A DNA stretch of 64,000 nucleotides from Xanthomonas arboricola pv. guizotiae (GTDB lineage Bacteria > Pseudomonadota > Gammaproteobacteria > Xanthomonadales > Xanthomonadaceae), in the NCBI RefSeq assembly GCF_002940205.1, contig NZ_MDSK01000019.1:1-64000 (forward strand), in the 5' to 3' direction. Positions 23,450 through 33,107 of the stretch are shown piece by piece. The notes below the pieces were generated by a model. The model ran no database searches. It was not told where the DNA came from and worked only from the letters and a program-made list of their open reading frames with translations. Position numbers and translations under genes: made by a program. Every line of letters begins with the position of its first letter. Positions within the stretch are counted from its first letter, which is position 1.

Positions 23450-24577
23450 TCAGCCGCGATCGGCGGCAGCCAATGGCCGCGCGCCCGGCCGCAGCATCCT
23501 GTCGCGCAATTGCAGGAACGGGCGCTCCACCGCGTAGTGCAACAGCGCGCCACCCAGCACTGCCACCAGCCCATAAACCGCAAATGCCAGCACGCCCCGC
23601 CCCTCCAGCGCCGGGCCGAACCAGCCCTGGGTGAGATGGAATACGGCCTTGTGGGTCAGATACAGGCTGTAGGAGATGGTCGCCAGCCATGCCGCGCCCG
23701 GCACGCGCAAGCCGCCGAGCACACCGCTGCCGGCGGTGCCGGCGAGCACCAGCAAGGCCAGTCCCAGCGACAGCACCGGCCAGCCCACCGCATTGCCGAT
23801 CAGGCCGGTGCGCTCGCGGAACAGCCACAGTGCCAGCGCCAGAATCGCCACGCCGGCACACAGAATGGCGTTGCCGTGCTGCTGCAGCCGTTGCCACGTC
23901 ATGGGACGAAACACCTTCAGTACCGCCAGCACGACACCGGCCAGCAGACCGTCAAGACGATTCCAGGTCGGGTAGTAGATGTCTTCGATAAACCAGTTGC
24001 GCTGCAGCCCGGCGCCAGCGCTGTCCAGGGCAGTGTTGTGCAACCAGAAGCCGGCGCGCAGCGCGATGCCCGCGATTACCACCGCCACGCACAGCATCAC
24101 AAACCGCGCGGCCGAGGGTCGCCGCAGCAGCAACGTCGCCAGCAACGGAAACAGCAGATAGAAATGTTCTTCCACGCACAGCGACCAGGCGTGCGAGAAC
24201 GCGGCATCACGGCCGTAGTCGACGAACAGGTTCAGGGTGAAGGTGACGAACATCCACCACGGCGCCAGCCCAGGCGACTCGCGAAAGTCCGGCCACGCCA
24301 TGTAGATCACCAGCACCAGCAAGAACGCCGGCAGGATGCGAAACGCGCGGCGCAGATAGAACTCCTTGAAGTCCAGGCGTTGCCCGCGCGCCAGCGGCCT
24401 CAGCACCTGCGTGCCGATCAGGAAGCCGCTCAGGACGAAGAACAGGTCCACGCCCATCCAGCCGTAGCGCGACAACCACGCCCAGTCCGGCCCCAGGCCG
24501 CCGACCACAAAGGAATGGAACAGCATCACCCAGACAATAGCGATGCCACGCAGCAGATCGAGAGCGGGATAGCGCAT
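23450..24577 (-). CDS. Acyltransferase 3 family membrane protein
   Basis: A 375-residue inner-membrane protein with about ten hydrophobic segments. The N-terminal MRYPALDLLRGIAIVWVMLFH and the WMGVDLFFVLSGFLIG segment are signatures of the acyltransferase 3 (OafA/NodX) family, which O-acylates glycans or antibiotics using acyl-CoA. SLCVEEHFYLLFPL is a conserved loop. The start at 24577 places the first helix correctly; the longer frame to 24730 adds a non-membrane tail. It lies 296 bp downstream of the glycosyltransferase gene, on the same strand, with a hairpin between, so it may or may not belong with the NRPS locus. Confidence 0.9.
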   Translation of the reverse strand: MRYPALDLLRGIAIVWVMLFHSFVVGGLGPDWAWLSRYGWMGVDLFFVLSGFLIGTQVLRPLARGQRLDFKEFYLRRAFRILPAFLLVLVIYMAWPDFRESPGLAPWWMFVTFTLNLFVDYGRDAAFSHAWSLCVEEHFYLLFPLLATLLLRRPSAARFVMLCVAVVIAGIALRAGFWLHNTALDSAGAGLQRNWFIEDIYYPTWNRLDGLLAGVVLAVLKVFRPMTWQRLQQHGNAILCAGVAILALALWLFRERTGLIGNAVGWPVLSLGLALLVLAGTAGSGVLGGLRVPGAAWLATISYSLYLTHKAVFHLTQGWFGPALEGRGVLAFAVYGLVAVLGGALLHYAVERPFLQLRDRMLRPGARPLAAADRG

Positions 24578-24825
24578 GCGGGCGATGCAAAGCCGAGGGA
24601 GCCCGATTGTGCGGCATCCCGTCGATGCGACGATGCCGGCGCCGACGCTGGCGCATTCGCCAGCTCGGATCAGTAACGCAGACGCTGTTTCCACGTCACT
24701 CGATCGTGCAGGCCTGGTCCGGTCGACCACCTATCGGCGACAGCAACACGCCCCGGCGGCCCACCCGCGCAGCAGCCGAAGGTCTTCGGTGAGGCCAGCC
24801 GCATTGCCGCAGCCAATCCAATGTT

Positions 24826-24873: not shown

Positions 24874-26211
24874 TCATGCGACGGCCTGCTGCTCGATCCG
24901 CACGGCCGGCGCCACCGACACCGCCGGTTGCAGCAATCCCCAGGCTTCCAGCTGCTCCACCGCACGGCCGATTCCGTCCTCCGCGCGGATGCGCTGCCCC
25001 AGCGCGCGTGCCGCCGCGCGCATGCTCGGCGCGCTGGCCTGGACGATGGCATCGGCCAGGGTCTGCGGCTGCAAGCCGACCCGTGCGAGTGCTGGCGGGG
25101 CGACGCCGCGCTGGGCCAGGCAGTGCGCCCAGAACGGCTGGTCGTAACCGAACGGCAGCACCACCGACGGGATCCCCGCAGCCAGCGTCGCACCGGTGGT
25201 GCCGGCACCGCCGTGATGCACCGCCACCGCCACCCGCGGGAACAGCCAATCGTGCGGTGCCTGCTCCAGCTGGAAGAAGCGCTCGGCATCGTCGGATGCG
25301 TCTTCCTGGGCCGCCAGCCCACCCCAGCCGCTGGCCAGCAGCGCGCGTTGACCGGTCAGACGCACCGCCGCCTTGACGATGGCGGTGAGCTGCGCCGCAT
25401 CGCTGCTGATCATGCTGCCAAAGCCGATATACAGCGGTGGCGGGCCGGCCTGCAGGAACGCCTGCAGCGCGGCCGGCGGCTGCCATTGCGGCTGCGGCAA
25501 CTGCCAGAACCCGCTGACCTGGGCCCGGTCCGGCCAGTCCGGCGGACGTGGGCACAGATGCTCGCTATAGCCATACACCACGCGCTGCGCACTGCGATCG
25601 GGGCCACTCCACGGATACGCCGGCAGCCCCAAGGCCGGGCGCACGATGCCGTTGAGCGCCGGGCGCATCAGCTGCCAGCCGGCAAACCGCACCGCGTGAT
25701 GCAGCGCCACGCTCACCAGCCCGGGCAGGCGCACGGTGGGCATCACCATCAACGGCATATGCCGCGAGGCGGTCAGCGGCTGCAATTGCGTGAACACCAC
25801 CGGCACGCCATAGGCCTGGCCCAGGCTATGCGCCAGCAGGCTGGCGCTGCCGACGCCGAGAATCAGGCCGGCATCGGCACAGGCCGCGCGGCCCTGCTCG
25901 GCCCAGTCGCGCGCCCACTCCAGCAGCTGCGCACGCAAGGTGCCCCAGATGCCGCGCCAGCCACCGCGCATCTCGGCGACATCCGGATGGCCCTGCAGCA
26001 GTTTCTGGTGATCGCCGCTGAGCGGGAAGAAGTCCAGCCCATTGGCGCGGATCAGCGCTTCGAAGTTGGCACTGGTCAGCACCCGCACCGGATAACCGCG
26101 CTCCTGCAAGCCACGGCCCAGCGCGATGATCGGGCGCACATCGCCATGCGTGCCCAGGGTGGCGATCAGCACCGGGCGCTGGCGTCCCGCGTTGACGGAA
26201 GACTCAGGCAT
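24874..26211 (-). CDS. GT1 (UGT-like) glycosyltransferase coupled to the NRPS
   Basis: A 445-residue GT-B enzyme. The N-terminal half starts PVLIATLGTHGDVRPIIALG (residues 13-32), as in sterol glucosyltransferases and antibiotic Gtf enzymes. The C-terminal half has HHGGAGTTG (332-340) and PFGYDQPFWA, the nucleotide-sugar binding block of the UDP- or TDP-glycosyltransferase family. No membrane helix or signal is seen, so it is cytoplasmic. Its ATG lies inside the end of the NRPS gene (8-nt overlap ATGCCTGA), which implies that the two products act together. It could glycosylate the NRPS product or a lipid acceptor; the donor and acceptor are unknown. Confidence 0.9.
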   Translation of the reverse strand: MPESSVNAGRQRPVLIATLGTHGDVRPIIALGRGLQERGYPVRVLTSANFEALIRANGLDFFPLSGDHQKLLQGHPDVAEMRGGWRGIWGTLRAQLLEWARDWAEQGRAACADAGLILGVGSASLLAHSLGQAYGVPVVFTQLQPLTASRHMPLMVMPTVRLPGLVSVALHHAVRFAGWQLMRPALNGIVRPALGLPAYPWSGPDRSAQRVVYGYSEHLCPRPPDWPDRAQVSGFWQLPQPQWQPPAALQAFLQAGPPPLYIGFGSMISSDAAQLTAIVKAAVRLTGQRALLASGWGGLAAQEDASDDAERFFQLEQAPHDWLFPRVAVAVHHGGAGTTGATLAAGIPSVVLPFGYDQPFWAHCLAQRGVAPPALARVGLQPQTLADAIVQASAPSMRAAARALGQRIRAEDGIGRAVEQLEAWGLLQPAVSVAPAVRIEQQAVA

Positions 26212-29200
26212 ATTCGGCCACCCCGTCGCTGGCGGTAGCGATGCTGCCAGCGCGTTGCGCGGCTTTGGCAGTGGCCGCATGCAGCAGTGCACTGAGCGTA
26301 GCCGAATGCGTGGACGACAGCATCGAGTGGTGGTCGCTGTCCAGCACATGCAGCTGCAGGTTGCGCACGTAGGGGCGCCAGGCCTGCGGCCGGTAATCCA
26401 CCCACACCGTATCGTCGCCGCCGGAGGTCATGCGCACGCTCGCTTCGACGAACACCACATCCTGGTCCAGCGGCTTGGGACGATGCCGCCGCGCCAGATG
26501 CAGGTGGTGCTGGGTCATGCCGCCCATGTCGTCCAGCAGCGTGGGGCGTTGTTCGAGCAACTGGCGCACCGCGGGCAGTTCGTTCAACCCGTAGTGATCG
26601 CACAGCAGGCTGGCCAGTTCGGCCACCGTGGTCGGCATCGGCTGGCCATGTGCCGGATGCAGGCCCAGCGCATGCACCGAGGCACGCACGCTCTCCGATT
26701 CCGGCAGCGACGCGGCCTGCTCCAGGTGCGGATAGCTGTCGAGCATCGCCAGCAATTCGACTTCTTCGCCCAGTGCATGCAGTTCGGCGGTGATGGCATG
26801 GGCGATCAAGCCGCCCAGCGACCAGCCGATCAATCGATACGGCCCCTGCGGCTGCACCGTGCGCAGCCGCGCCAGATAGTCGCGCGCGATCGCCTCGATG
26901 CTTTCCGGGCGATGCTGGGGGTCGCTCAAGCCCGGCGACTGCAACGCATACACCGGCCACTGCGGATCCAGCTGACCGAGCAAGGTGAGATACGACCAGC
27001 CCAGGCCGACCATCGGGTGGATGCAGAACAGCGGCGGCGTCCCCGGGGAGCCTGCACGCAGCGGCAGCAGCACGCCGAGCGGATCGTTCGGGATCTGCGC
27101 GTTGCGCTTGATCACCTCGGCCAGGCCGGCGATGGTCGGCGCATGGAACAGGGTACCCAATGGCAGTTCGACACCGAACGTCTGCGGGAAGCGTGCGGCC
27201 ATTTCCGCCGCGCGCAGCGAGTCGCCGCCGAGCTCGAAGAAGTTGTCTTCCACACCCACCACTTCGATGCCCAGCACGTCCTGCAGCATCGCTGCCAGCT
27301 GCTGTTCGAGCGCATCGCGCGGCGCCACATGCGCGCGCTGCGGCAGCGCACCCGGCGAGGGCAAGGCGCGGCGATCCAGCTTGCCATTGGGTGTCAGCGG
27401 CAGTGCCTGCAACGGCACCCACAAGGAGGGAATCATCGACGCCGGCAGGCGCTGCTGCAGATGCGCACGCAACACCTCGGGCGTTGGCGTCGCACCGTGC
27501 TTGCCCACCACATACGCCAGCAACTGCAGCGCGTCGTGGTCGCCATCGCGATGACCGACCACCACCGCCTGCGCCACCTGCGAATGCAGCAGCAAGGCAT
27601 TTTCGATTTCGGCCGGCTCCACGCGGTGCCCGCGGATCTTCAATTGCGCGTCTGCGCGGCCGATGAACTCCAGCATGCCGTCGCGGCGCTGACGCACGCG
27701 GTCGCCGGTGCGGTACATGGTGCTGCCGTTGTCGGCGAACGGGTCGCGCATAAACCGCTCGCTGGTCAGCACACGCTTGCCGCGATAGCCCTTGGCCACG
27801 CCCGCGCCACCGATGTACAACTCGCCGATCGCGCCGGTCGGCAGCGGTTGCCGCTGCGCATCGAGCACGTAGACGCGCGTATTGAGCAGCGGCCTGCCGA
27901 TCGGCGGGGCGGCAGCGTCGGTGAGCTGCAACGGCATGATGGTCGACCAGATCGTGGTTTCGGTCGGCCCGTACAACTGGGTCAGGCGCCCGACCCGGCT
28001 CAGCAACTGGGTCGCCAGTTCCGGCACCAGGGCTTCGCCGCCGACCAGGGCGTGGATGCGGTCCAGCGCCAGATCCTGGTTGGCCAGCAGGATGCGCCAC
28101 AGCGACGGGGTCGCCTGCACCACGCTGATCTGCTCCTGCGCGATCAGCCGCGACAGGCTGCGTGGATCGTGGGTGATGCCGGCCGGTGCGATGACCACGC
28201 GCGCGCCCACCAACAACGGCAGATACAGCTCCAGCCCGGCGATATCGAAGGTGATGGTGGTGACCGCCAGCACGCGGTCGCGCGGGCGCAACGCAAGCTC
28301 ATGCTCCATCGCATGCAGGAAATTGAACAGGTTGCGATGGCTGATTTCCACGCCCTTGGGCGCGCCGGTCGAACCGGAGGTGTACAGCACATAGGCCGTA
28401 CCGTCCGGCGTGACCAGCGGCGCGATCGCCGCCGGCAACACCGCCGGACGCGGATCCAGCCAGACCATGCCGCCGAGCAGATAGCGCTCGCACAACGCCG
28501 GCTCGCAGACCAGCGCGATGGCACCGGAATCGTTGAGCATCTGCCGGTTGCGCGCGGCCGGGCTTTCCGGGTCCAGCGGCAGATACGCCGCCCCGCTCCA
28601 CATCACCGCCAGCAAGGCCACCAGCAATTGCTCGCCGCGCGGCAACGCGATGGCGACCACGTCGCCGGGGCGGACGCCATCGGCCGCCCATTGCGCGGCG
28701 ATGCGCGAGGCCAGCTCGCACAGCGTGGCGTAGTCCAGGGTGCGGTTGTCGTACTGCACCACCACTGCCGCCGGCATCAGCTCGGCACGCTGCAACATGC
28801 CGTGCAGCAGCGTGGCCGGCTCCGGCAGTGGCGCGGCGGTGGCGTTCCAGGTGTGCAACAGGCGGCGGCGTTCCGCATCGCCCAGCACATCAATCTGGCC
28901 CAGCGCGCATTCCGGATCGGCCAGTACCGCATCGGCCAGATGGGTCAGGCGGCGGCAGTGTTCGGCCAGCTCGTCGCTGTCGTAGAGCGCCGGATTGGCA
29001 TCCAGATCGAAGCGCAACGCGGCACCGTCGCCGCGCTCGTAGCAGAAGACGGTCAGATCGTCGGCCGGGCCGTTGGACAGGTTATGCGGCATCGAATAGG
29101 CTTGGCCAAATCGCATTGCGTAATCGAAGGCTTCGATGTTCACTGCCAAGCGTGCGAACTTCTGATCGATCCCGAACATGCCCAGATCGCGACGCACGTC

Positions 29201-30187
29201 CTCGAAACGGTATTGCTGGTGGCGCAGCGCATGCCTGACCACCGAGGACACCTGCGCGAACAGCGCATGCACCGGCTGCTGCGGATCCATTTTCAGGCGC
29301 AGCGAGATCACGTTGGCCACCAGGCCTGCGGTCTGCCGGTAACGCGCATTGATGCGGCCGGTCACCGGCATGGCCAGCACCAGATCCTCGGCGCCGGTGC
29401 AACGGTAGTAATACGCGGCGATCAGCGAAATCAGCATCTGCGGCAGGCTGGCGCCGTAGTCCTTGCCGAGCGCGCGCAGCCGTACCACCTGCTGCGGCGA
29501 GAACTGTCCGGTGCCACGCAACAACCCGGTCGACAGGTGATTGCCCGGACGCGCCAGGGTCGCCGGCGGCGGCAGATCGGCCAGCTGCTGCATCCAGTAG
29601 CTACGGTCGCGCTGAAAACGATCGGAGTCGCGATACTGCTGTTCCAGCTCGATCAACGACAGCGCGCTGCCGTACTGCGCAGGCTCCGGCTCGCGGTCTT
29701 CTGCGTAGGCGTTATACAGCACCGCCATGCGCTGCATCATGATCGACGCGCAATAGCCATCCATCACCAGATGGCTGACGCATTGCACCCACATGTGATG
29801 GTCTTCGCCGAGGCGGAACACCGCGCAATGCCATAACGGCCCGTTCTGCAGATCTTCCGGCTTGCGGATTTCCTCGTCCACCCAATGCTCGGCGGCGTTG
29901 CGCGGGGACGGATCCCCGCTGACGTTGAAATACGGAATCGTGGCGGTGTATTCGGGCAGGATCACCTGATGCGGCACGCCGTCGTGCTCGGCGATGCATA
30001 GCCGCAGCGTGTCGAATTCGCGCGTCAGCTGCATGCTGGCGCGGATCAGCAGCTGCGGATCCAGCGGGCCGAACAGTTCCAGGGCTTCGGACAACATCAA
30101 GGTGTTGTCGGTATGCAACTTGCTGGCCACCCACAGGCCGCGTTGCGCTTTGGTCAGGGGAAACACGGGAGAGGCGTCGGTGTGCAT
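26204..30187 (-). CDS. Single-module EntF-like non-ribosomal peptide synthetase (C-A-T-TE), predicted glycine-activating
   Basis: A 1327-residue cytoplasmic synthetase. Condensation domain (about 8-440): SHLVMDG at 138-144, with Ser in place of the first His of HHxxxDG but the catalytic second His kept. Adenylation domain (about 460-945): YTSGSTGAPKG at 602-612, YRTGD, PNGKLDRR. Carrier: LGGDS with Ser990. Thioesterase (about 1050-1320): GWSLGG with Ser1123, Asp1150 and a His near 1286. The layout and length match EntF (serine). The ten specificity residues by alignment to GrsA are D648, I649, L652, Q691, L714, G716, L738, I746, W747, K936. DILQLGLIWK is a known glycine code. The start at 30187 is preferred because AGAAGG is 9 nt upstream. 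No partner synthetase is nearby. Confidence 0.93.
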   Translation of the reverse strand: MHTDASPVFPLTKAQRGLWVASKLHTDNTLMLSEALELFGPLDPQLLIRASMQLTREFDTLRLCIAEHDGVPHQVILPEYTATIPYFNVSGDPSPRNAAEHWVDEEIRKPEDLQNGPLWHCAVFRLGEDHHMWVQCVSHLVMDGYCASIMMQRMAVLYNAYAEDREPEPAQYGSALSLIELEQQYRDSDRFQRDRSYWMQQLADLPPPATLARPGNHLSTGLLRGTGQFSPQQVVRLRALGKDYGASLPQMLISLIAAYYYRCTGAEDLVLAMPVTGRINARYRQTAGLVANVISLRLKMDPQQPVHALFAQVSSVVRHALRHQQYRFEDVRRDLGMFGIDQKFARLAVNIEAFDYAMRFGQAYSMPHNLSNGPADDLTVFCYERGDGAALRFDLDANPALYDSDELAEHCRRLTHLADAVLADPECALGQIDVLGDAERRRLLHTWNATAAPLPEPATLLHGMLQRAELMPAAVVVQYDNRTLDYATLCELASRIAAQWAADGVRPGDVVAIALPRGEQLLVALLAVMWSGAAYLPLDPESPAARNRQMLNDSGAIALVCEPALCERYLLGGMVWLDPRPAVLPAAIAPLVTPDGTAYVLYTSGSTGAPKGVEISHRNLFNFLHAMEHELALRPRDRVLAVTTITFDIAGLELYLPLLVGARVVIAPAGITHDPRSLSRLIAQEQISVVQATPSLWRILLANQDLALDRIHALVGGEALVPELATQLLSRVGRLTQLYGPTETTIWSTIMPLQLTDAAAPPIGRPLLNTRVYVLDAQRQPLPTGAIGELYIGGAGVAKGYRGKRVLTSERFMRDPFADNGSTMYRTGDRVRQRRDGMLEFIGRADAQLKIRGHRVEPAEIENALLLHSQVAQAVVVGHRDGDHDALQLLAYVVGKHGATPTPEVLRAHLQQRLPASMIPSLWVPLQALPLTPNGKLDRRALPSPGALPQRAHVAPRDALEQQLAAMLQDVLGIEVVGVEDNFFELGGDSLRAAEMAARFPQTFGVELPLGTLFHAPTIAGLAEVIKRNAQIPNDPLGVLLPLRAGSPGTPPLFCIHPMVGLGWSYLTLLGQLDPQWPVYALQSPGLSDPQHRPESIEAIARDYLARLRTVQPQGPYRLIGWSLGGLIAHAITAELHALGEEVELLAMLDSYPHLEQAASLPESESVRASVHALGLHPAHGQPMPTTVAELASLLCDHYGLNELPAVRQLLEQRPTLLDDMGGMTQHHLHLARRHRPKPLDQDVVFVEASVRMTSGGDDTVWVDYRPQAWRPYVRNLQLHVLDSDHHSMLSSTHSATLSALLHAATAKAAQRAGSIATASDGVAEYA

Positions 30188-31068: not shown

Positions 31069-32955
31069 TCAGCCCAACGGTTCGTCGGACAGATAGGTGT
31101 AACCGGTCAACCCTGCTTCCAGCGCATCGCTCAGTTCCTGAGCGCGCTCGGGCGGTAGCTGCGCGGCGGCGATACGCTCGGCATAGGTGGCACGCAGCGT
31201 GTCCAGCTGATAGCCCACGTAGTCCAGCATCACATCGGTGGTATCGCCGCGGCGCTGCTGCGCGATGCGATAGCCATCGCCGTCCACGGCCACTTCCACC
31301 GCATCGGTATCGCCGAACAGGTTATGGATATCGCCCAGGATTTCCTGGTAGGCACCGACCAGGAAGAAACCGATGCGATAACTCTCACCCGGATTCAGCG
31401 TGTGCAGCGGCATCGAGCTGTCCAGGCTTTCGTTCTCGACGTAGGTCTTGACCATGCCGTCGGAGTCGCAGGTCATGTCGGCGATGATGCCGCGCCGCTG
31501 CGGCGCTTCGTTCAAGCGCTCGATCGGCACGATCGGGAACACCTGATCGATCGCCCATACATCCGGAATCGACTCGAACACGCTGAAGTTGACGAAGTAC
31601 TTGTCGACCAGCCGCTCGTTGAGCTCGTCCAGCACCGGGCGATGGCTCTTCTCGTCGAAGCTCAGGCGTGCACGCACGCCATGCGCGATCGCATAGAACA
31701 GGTCGTCGATGCGCGCGCGGTGGGTCAGGTCGATCTGGCCCAGTGCGTACGCACTCAAGCCTTCGGCATGGAAGTGCTGCGCCTCCTGGAACAGCTCCAC
31801 CGCCGGGCGCACGTCGAGCTCGTCATGGATCTCGCGCAGGTGGCGGATCGCTGCCGGCTCGTCGGCGTGCGCGTCCGGCACGCGGCCTTCCGGCGCCTGC
31901 TCCACTTCGGACACGTTGGCGATCAACACTGCGTGGTGGGCAGTCATCGCGCGGCCGCATTCGGTGACGATGCGCGGCGGGGTCAGTCCATGCTCTTCGC
32001 AGGCGCTGGCCAGCGGCTGCACGATGTTGCTGGCGTAGGAATGCAGGCCGTAGTTGATCGAGCAATAGCTGCGCGAGCGCGTGCCTTCGTAATCGATGCC
32101 CAGGCCGCCGCCGACATCCACATGGCTGATCCTGGCGCCCAGCCGCGACAGCTCCACGAAGTAGCGCGTGGCCTCGCGCATGCCGTTGGCGATGTCGCGC
32201 ACGTTGGAGATCTGCGAGCCCATGTGGAAATGCAGCAGCTGCAGGCTGTCGGCGTACTCGGTGTCGCGCAGGGTCTTCCACAGATCCAGCACCTGCCGTG
32301 GCGACAACCCGAACTTGGCCTTGTCGCCACCGCTGTTCTGCCACTTGCCCGCGCCCAGCGAGGCCAGGCGCATGCGCACGCCCAGGCCCGGCTTGACGTC
32401 CAGCGCGCGCGCCTCCTCCAGCACCAGCTTCAGCTCGGAGGGCTTTTCGATGACGATGAAGGTCTGCAGGCCGAGCTTGCGGCCGATCAGCGCCAGGCGG
32501 ATGTATTCGCGGTCCTTGTAGCCATTGCAGACGATCAGCCCGCCCGGACGCGACAGCGCCAGCACCGCCATCAGCTCCGGCTTGCTGCCCGCTTCCAGAC
32601 CGAAGCCGTCGCCGTGGTGGCTGGCCAGCGTGCCGGCCACGCCACGGTGCTGGTTGACCTTGATCGGGTACACGGCCGTGTAGCCGCCGGCGTAGTCCCA
32701 TTCGGACTGCGCCTGCGCGAACGCGGCCTGCAGCTTGCCCAGGCGCTGGCCCAGGATGTCCGGGAAACGCACCAGCAGCGGCAGCTTGGCGCCGGCTGCG
32801 CGCGCGGCATCCACCACCTCGGGCAACGACACCGACGGACCGTCGCTGGTCGGCGTGACCACCACATGTCCGGCGTCGTTCACATCGAAATACCCGTCGG
32901 CCCAATGCGGGATCGAATAGGTCTTGCGGGCTTGGTCGAGGGACCAATCGCTCAT
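31069..32955 (-). CDS. speA: Biosynthetic arginine decarboxylase
   Basis: PLP-dependent decarboxylase converting arginine to agmatine for polyamine synthesis. The 628-residue protein has a fold III alanine-racemase-like barrel with the PLP lysine in YPIKVNQ, the LHFHMGSQI and HVDVGGGLGIDYEG segments, and a C-terminal beta domain with MTCDSDG. The length matches the SpeA family. The start at 32955 opens on MSDWSLDQARKTY. It is divergent from speE; the 233 bp between them hold a structured intergenic repeat. Confidence 0.96.
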   Translation of the reverse strand: MSDWSLDQARKTYSIPHWADGYFDVNDAGHVVVTPTSDGPSVSLPEVVDAARAAGAKLPLLVRFPDILGQRLGKLQAAFAQAQSEWDYAGGYTAVYPIKVNQHRGVAGTLASHHGDGFGLEAGSKPELMAVLALSRPGGLIVCNGYKDREYIRLALIGRKLGLQTFIVIEKPSELKLVLEEARALDVKPGLGVRMRLASLGAGKWQNSGGDKAKFGLSPRQVLDLWKTLRDTEYADSLQLLHFHMGSQISNVRDIANGMREATRYFVELSRLGARISHVDVGGGLGIDYEGTRSRSYCSINYGLHSYASNIVQPLASACEEHGLTPPRIVTECGRAMTAHHAVLIANVSEVEQAPEGRVPDAHADEPAAIRHLREIHDELDVRPAVELFQEAQHFHAEGLSAYALGQIDLTHRARIDDLFYAIAHGVRARLSFDEKSHRPVLDELNERLVDKYFVNFSVFESIPDVWAIDQVFPIVPIERLNEAPQRRGIIADMTCDSDGMVKTYVENESLDSSMPLHTLNPGESYRIGFFLVGAYQEILGDIHNLFGDTDAVEVAVDGDGYRIAQQRRGDTTDVMLDYVGYQLDTLRATYAERIAAAQLPPERAQELSDALEAGLTGYTYLSDEPLG

Positions 32956-33107
32956 TTCGCTGACTCGGCTGGGGCAAAAAGGGCGTGAAGTGTAACGCCT
33001 GGCACGCGCAGGGTCCGTTACAATCCGCGCCGACTTCACGCCCTGCTCCGGTTGGAGCGGGGTGGAATGCGGGTTCGGCCGCCGCGCAGTTTGACTGCGC
33101 GCGACTG

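Follow-up and report, generated by a model that had tools for sequence, protein, structure and literature searches.

Short non-ribosomal peptide synthetase (NRPS) genes that overlap a glycosyltransferase (GT) gene have been described in Xanthomonas, and here we examine one such pair in Xanthomonas arboricola pv. guizotiae, carried on a stretch of 64,000 nucleotides (contig NZ_MDSK01000019.1, positions 1 to 64,000) that is referred to below as the window. Published statements are taken throughout from excerpts of the papers cited. Royer et al. in 2013 named XALc_0364/0365 and XALc_1145/1144 as 'short NRPS' genes overlapping a GT, with similar short-NRPS genes in X. campestris and X. citri; the predicted product combines glycine, a beta-hydroxy acid and a glycosyl group, and the function of the pair is left unknown in that excerpt (PMC3849588). 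A second excerpt likewise states that a precise function has not yet been attributed to it (PMC4584326).

In Alcanivorax borkumensis, a short NRPS (ABO_1784), a GT (ABO_1783) and a phosphopantetheinyl transferase (PPTase; ABO_1782) are contiguous (PMC3849588). The glycine-glucolipid of this organism is built from glucose, four 3-hydroxy fatty acids and a terminal, amide-linked glycine; aglycones, the trimeric aglycone 10:0(3)-Gly and minor alanine forms have been observed, and in the speculation of the authors acylation of glycine comes first and addition of glucose last (PMC10684412). ABO_1783 and ABO_2215 are candidate glycosyltransferases for the pathway, which is described as 'not completely elucidated' in the excerpt concerned (PMC10710537).

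The pair of the window shares with the Xanthomonas set of Royer et al. the order of condensation (C), adenylation (A), peptidyl carrier protein (PCP, or T) and thioesterase (TE) domains, the GT overlap, the glycine signature of XALc_0364 and, probably, a starter C domain; no essential difference from the excerpted description was found, and the pair appears to belong to that set. What is new here, and open to direct test, is the link between this known gene pair of unproven function and the glycine-glucolipid. The likely product of the pair, in our view, is a lipid of the glycine-glucolipid type, a glycosylated N-(3-hydroxyacyl)glycine. A probably wrong label, that of a serine-activating siderophore enzyme, is thereby replaced by a testable product class for a pair found in most of the genus genomes searched, and many comparison genomes are offered for the Alcanivorax pathway.

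Architecture of the gene pair

The features of the pair are as follows (nt, nucleotides; aa, amino acids).

24874..26211, minus strand: GT1-type glycosyltransferase, 445 aa, 8-nt overlap with the NRPS
26204..30187, minus strand: single-module NRPS, C-A-T-TE, 1327 aa, ATG start, A-domain code DILQLGLIWK (glycine)
28850..30187, minus strand: condensation-domain stretch at the NRPS N-terminus, probably of the starter type, with the active-site motif SHLVMDG

In Pfam terms the NRPS comprises Condensation (residues 9-444), AMP-binding (467-801), AMP-binding_C (860-936), PP-binding (962-1026) and Thioesterase (1051-1297), and the motifs SHLVMDG (C), GGDSL (T) and GWSLGG (TE) are intact; its condensation domain is the only one found in the genome. 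The GT protein matches Glyco_transf_28 and EryCIII-like_C. The two genes overlap by 8 nt, ATGCCTGA containing both the GT start and the NRPS stop, and an 8-nt overlap with ATG recurs in all 15 genus loci compared (L003 to L018 without L011). The overlapping pair described in an earlier note on this DNA is confirmed, and we infer that its two genes are translationally coupled.

The ratio of non-synonymous to synonymous substitution rates (dN/dS) was 0.088-0.238 for the window NRPS and 0.135-0.311 for the GT over 18 locus comparisons, which represent 15 distinct genomes because L045, L046 and L047 come from the same genomes as L016, L017 and L010 (L009, L011, L015, L018 and L054 were excluded). 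The pair is not a chance arrangement, because dN/dS of both genes lies well below 1 and the ATG and overlap are the same at 15/15 loci. The speA control gave 0.025-0.061 at the five loci that it reached; the constraint on the pair is real but weaker than that on speA.

Specificity of the adenylation domain

The ten code positions of the window A domain read D, I, L, Q, L, G, L, I, W and K. We take DILQLGLIWK to be a glycine code, and the DVWH codes (DVWHFSLVDK and DVWHMSLVDK) to be the serine code of EntF. Positions were placed by motif and then transferred through an alignment of 65 NRPS rows, which are distinct frames of less than 1520 aa scoring more than 900 bits with the A2 profile (the lower-scoring relatives L049-L052, L167 and L168 were excluded). 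Seven EntF-like rows served as an internal check: in the columns concerned they show DVWHFSLVDK or DVWHMSLVDK. The window code is for glycine rather than serine, as the earlier note had stated. XALc_0364 of X. albilineans has been assigned a glycine signature, in agreement with this assignment (PMC3849588).

Besides the seven DVWH-type rows and three partial ones, the alignment holds 36 rows with DILQLGLIWK, six with DILQLGLVWK and 13 with other non-serine-like codes. These 55, defined as neither DVWH-coded nor partial, include codes that are possibly not for glycine, among them DIFQLTLVWK (3), DVLQLALVYK (2), DILELGMVWK (1) and DILQLVLIWK (1, a broken copy in G092). Two relatives in the genus g16 (L025 and L029, in the genomes of L039 and L043) carry the variants DIFQLTLVWK and DVLQLALVYK, and the amino acid may differ there. 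The genome G226 has a second pair (L037:8811-12854), in which the code is DILELGMVWK; it may correspond to XALc_1145, for which Royer et al. call the signature unknown (PMC3849588).

Relatives of the condensation domain and glycosyltransferase

The best PDB matches of the C domain are 7c1k, 7c1h and 7c1p at 225-230 bits, with CDA synthetase I at 181-182 bits, ObiF1 at 175 and EntF at 151.7. The first three are presumably the rhizomide lipo-initiating starter C domain, and CDA synthetase I is presumed likewise to be a lipo-initiating starter. In a tree of 52 C domains, built without labelled subtype references, that of the window groups with EntF-like domains and with the N-terminal C domains L142 and L169 of longer frames. 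For the X. albilineans copies, the C domains fell in the starter clade in the analysis of Royer et al. (PMC3849588). Judged by these relatives, the window C domain is probably of the starter type.

The best solved match of the GT profile is sterol 3-beta-glucosyltransferase (PDB 5xvm and 5gl5) at 250 bits, followed by GtfB at 149 bits, while solved rhamnosyltransferases match weakly (<=32 bits). The sterol enzyme, the closest solved sequence relative of the window GT profile, is eukaryotic and uses UDP-glucose as donor and a sterol as acceptor.

Proposed product and pathway

In the pathway that we propose, the A domain would activate glycine and load it onto the PCP, which the single PPTase found in the genome would have to prime. 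The C domain, probably a starter, would accept a 3-hydroxyacyl group carried by CoA or acyl carrier protein and use it to N-acylate the glycine on the PCP, more 3-hydroxyacyl units would possibly be added, and the TE would release the free acid. The GT1 enzyme would glycosylate a hydroxyl left free on the acyl chain, with UDP-glucose as the probable donor. A 3-hydroxyacyl group is proposed because the GT needs a hydroxyl, which N-(3-hydroxyacyl)glycine offers; a beta-hydroxy acid is likewise part of the product predicted by Royer et al. The acyl donor, the number of chains, the sugar, the step order and the product are predictions, and the lipid may carry a single acyl unit or, like that of Alcanivorax, an oligomer.

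The likeness to ABO_1784/1783/1782, as excerpted, lies in the short NRPS, the overlapping GT and the glycine of the product, which is here a predicted one. A. borkumensis has a PPTase beside the pair whereas the window pair has none, and an acyltransferase gene stands beside the window pair; in PMC3849588 a PPTase neighbour does not define the type. Cui et al. reportedly found in 2022 that an Alcanivorax NRPS mutant loses the glycine-glucolipid. The earlier note had proposed a glycosylated glycine conjugate, with an acyl or other acid, as an undescribed small molecule. Its outline, an acyl-glycine glycoside, stands; 'undescribed' does not, since the excerpt of Royer et al. already contains the pair with its glycine signature and GT overlap, as well as the type of product to be expected (PMC3849588). 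Searches of open-licence PMC literature aimed at a glycine-glucolipid or at these locus tags showed no claim of such a lipid for Xanthomonas, which is not proof of absence, and in the excerpt of PMC12299268 the genus is mentioned only in a reference.

Conservation of the pairing

A GT is adjacent to the NRPS in 52 of the 55 rows without the serine code and in none of the seven with it (0/7). Removal of the five rows that were found via the GT itself (L053, L055, L056, L057 and L062) leaves 47/50, and the exact codes DILQLGLIWK or DILQLGLVWK alone give 39/42. Among 35 genomes of the genus, the NRPS occurs in 33 and the GT in the same 33, on one contig and strand in every case, with neither gene in G295 and G1058; the NRPS match is uninterrupted in 28 of the 33 copies. 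The pairing is conserved in related genomes, the outcome that the reading of the earlier note required. In X. euvesicatoria strain ATCC 11633, the NRPS is split across two frames (L054:3735-7969). Marinomonas spartinae has a full-length NRPS (L191:6992-10981) and a GT of 44% identity (L058:3754-5034) on different contigs.

GT identity to named relatives is 87% for Xanthomonas pisi, 79% for X. euvesicatoria and X. prunicola, and 65% for X. maliensis. A plasmid collection gave no match to the GT protein at 1e-60, and in a class-wide draw of 369 genomes no genome but that of the window had the GT at 1e-80 or better. Either the GT family is patchy outside the named groups or the 1e-80 cut-off misses distant members.

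Neighbouring genes and the X. citri counterpart

Two neighbours of the pair bear on its comparison with other genomes.

23450..24730, minus strand: Acyl_transf_3 (OafA/OpgC-like; Pfam) open frame beside the GT, start position not fixed, a possible tailoring enzyme
31069..33039, minus strand: speA arginine decarboxylase (NCBIfam TIGR01273), upstream neighbour and synteny marker, not thought to be in the pathway

Several relatives, X. pisi, X. prunicola and X. maliensis among them, also carry homologues of the Acyl_transf_3 frame near the pair; L033 and L035 do not. XAC3923 and XAC3924 of X. citri are listed as polyamine proteins (PMC2996358). XAC3922 adjoins these loci by number, as the window NRPS adjoins speA, and the window NRPS is therefore most likely, by synteny alone, its orthologue. 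XAC3922 has been published as entF, 'ATP-dependent serine activating enzyme', and is regulated by diffusible signal factor (DSF), with a log2 fold change of 1.42 during infection for wild type over the rpfF mutant (PMC6337780).

Alternative explanations

Several points weigh against a product of the glycine-glucolipid type. We know of no product of the pair from any Xanthomonas; the window pair is likened to the ABO genes by published description and not by Alcanivorax sequence, and product and sugar are here predicted. In the C-domain tree the other clade (15 C domains) includes, besides internal domains, six located in the first 71 residues of the frame, so that the tree alone does not prove the starter type; some of these six sit in frames cut by the locus end. 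The GT profile also matches GtfA, GtfB and GtfD, and thus does not fix the sugar. A PPTase adjoins the pair in 0/8 genus genomes examined, none lies beside the window pair, and a single PPTase-superfamily match was found in the window genome. Three rows with an exact glycine code have no adjacent GT: L138 (from M. spartinae), L157 and L158. Of the 33 NRPS copies in the genus, three are broken (G092 and G1072 carry stops and G1060 a split) and two, in G1067 and G1071, are partial, and the GT of G192 carries two stops; the pair is widely retained in the genus yet repeatedly broken.

The one PPTase match, these breaks, the absence of the pair from two genus genomes and the constraint weaker than that on speA all fit the idea of Royer et al. 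(2013), as excerpted, that the pair has lost its function in Xanthomonas lacking the XaPPTase gene. Loss is nevertheless improbable in our judgement, given the low dN/dS of both genes, the majority of uninterrupted NRPS copies and the DSF regulation of XAC3922 during infection (PMC6337780). The three rows without an adjacent GT, with the separate contigs of M. spartinae, would instead suit an NRPS that frees an N-acylglycine signal or surfactant while the GT acts on a different acceptor; the overlap of GT start and NRPS stop is, however, kept across the genus and nearby genera, and adjacency is the rule among the rows without a serine code, so that we give this explanation little credence. It is also unlikely, if somewhat conceivable, that the acyl group is an aromatic acid such as 3-hydroxybenzoate, giving a glycosylated aroyl-glycine. 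Xanthomonas supplies 3-hydroxybenzoate for xanthomonadin, EntF-like C domains take aryl groups, and such domains form the neighbouring clade in the C-domain tree; but for the window C domain EntF is a lower-scoring match than either the 7c1k group or CDA synthetase I, Nitrospirillum and the order of Spongiibacter also have related pairs, and no aryl ligase or carrier was seen among the eight window proteins tested by Pfam.

The annotation entF would make the NRPS an EntF-type enzyme for an aryl-capped serine siderophore. EntF has the same C-A-T-TE layout in one protein, and the NCBIfam models MxcG and EntF are the best partial matches; the scores, however, are 709.4 bits against a cut-off of 2300 and 622.8 against 2400, and the A domain carries the glycine code. 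The earlier note had seen no aryl-acid partner gene nearby, and in accord with this the window genome has no match at 1e-100 to the 2,3-dihydroxybenzoate (DHB)-AMP ligase family (TIGR02275). Seven of 25 genomes searched with this model match: five EntF-like controls (G245, G286, G232, G819 and G737; the serine code was read in G819 and G737), all with the ligase at most about 3 kb from the NRPS, and G157 and G231, two of the 20 non-control carriers of the window NRPS family. The latter two would favour a siderophore, but their ligases are remote, that of G157 (over the cut-off) being on another contig and that of G231 (below it) about 2.3 Mb from the NRPS. EntF differs further from the window pair in its serine code, its aryl-acid partners and the lack of an adjacent GT in the seven serine-code relatives checked. 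An aryl siderophore was rejected on the sub-threshold NCBIfam scores and the lack of a ligase match in the genome, and we regard an EntF-type role as scarcely credible. The warning in the earlier note that an EntF-type annotation misleads applies to XAC3922 as published (PMC6337780).

Distant relatives and wider distribution

The pair is also present in Nitrospirillum amazonense and Spongiibacter pelagi. An NRPS-profile search of 390 genomes in the order of Spongiibacter gave 59 with a match at 1e-200, many in much longer frames; in 17 genomes, one of them that of S. pelagi, there is a member that scores 1467-1680 bits and has a DILQLG-type code. Of these 17, 16 were searched for PPTases, and in 11 a PPTase directly follows the GT on the same strand (not in G974, G986, G791, G1010 and G898); this NRPS-GT-PPTase order matches that of ABO_1784/1783/1782 as excerpted.

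The only oligomeric glycine-glucolipid hitherto known to us is the cell-associated surfactant of a marine bacterium that degrades oil. We raise tentatively, as a possibility about which we are doubtful, that plant-associated Xanthomonas make an oligomeric glycine-glucolipid under DSF control for use at the plant surface, with lineage-specific tailoring; the same joint proposal would assign this tailoring in Xanthomonas to an O-acyltransferase, in relatives of the order of Spongiibacter to an enzyme of the sulfotransferase family, and in Nitrospirillum to a resistance-nodulation-division (RND) exporter with a GT-HlyD fusion.

In N. amazonense, the GT is fused in one frame with an HlyD-type membrane-fusion domain (L192:4446-6941), followed by an AcrB-type RND pump (L192:1291-4449), an arrangement that suggests export of the product. 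A sulfotransferase-family gene lies at L176:7124-8227 (Pfam was run on this gene only), and of the 20 loci L173-L192, 14 have a member of its BLAST cluster close to the NRPS.

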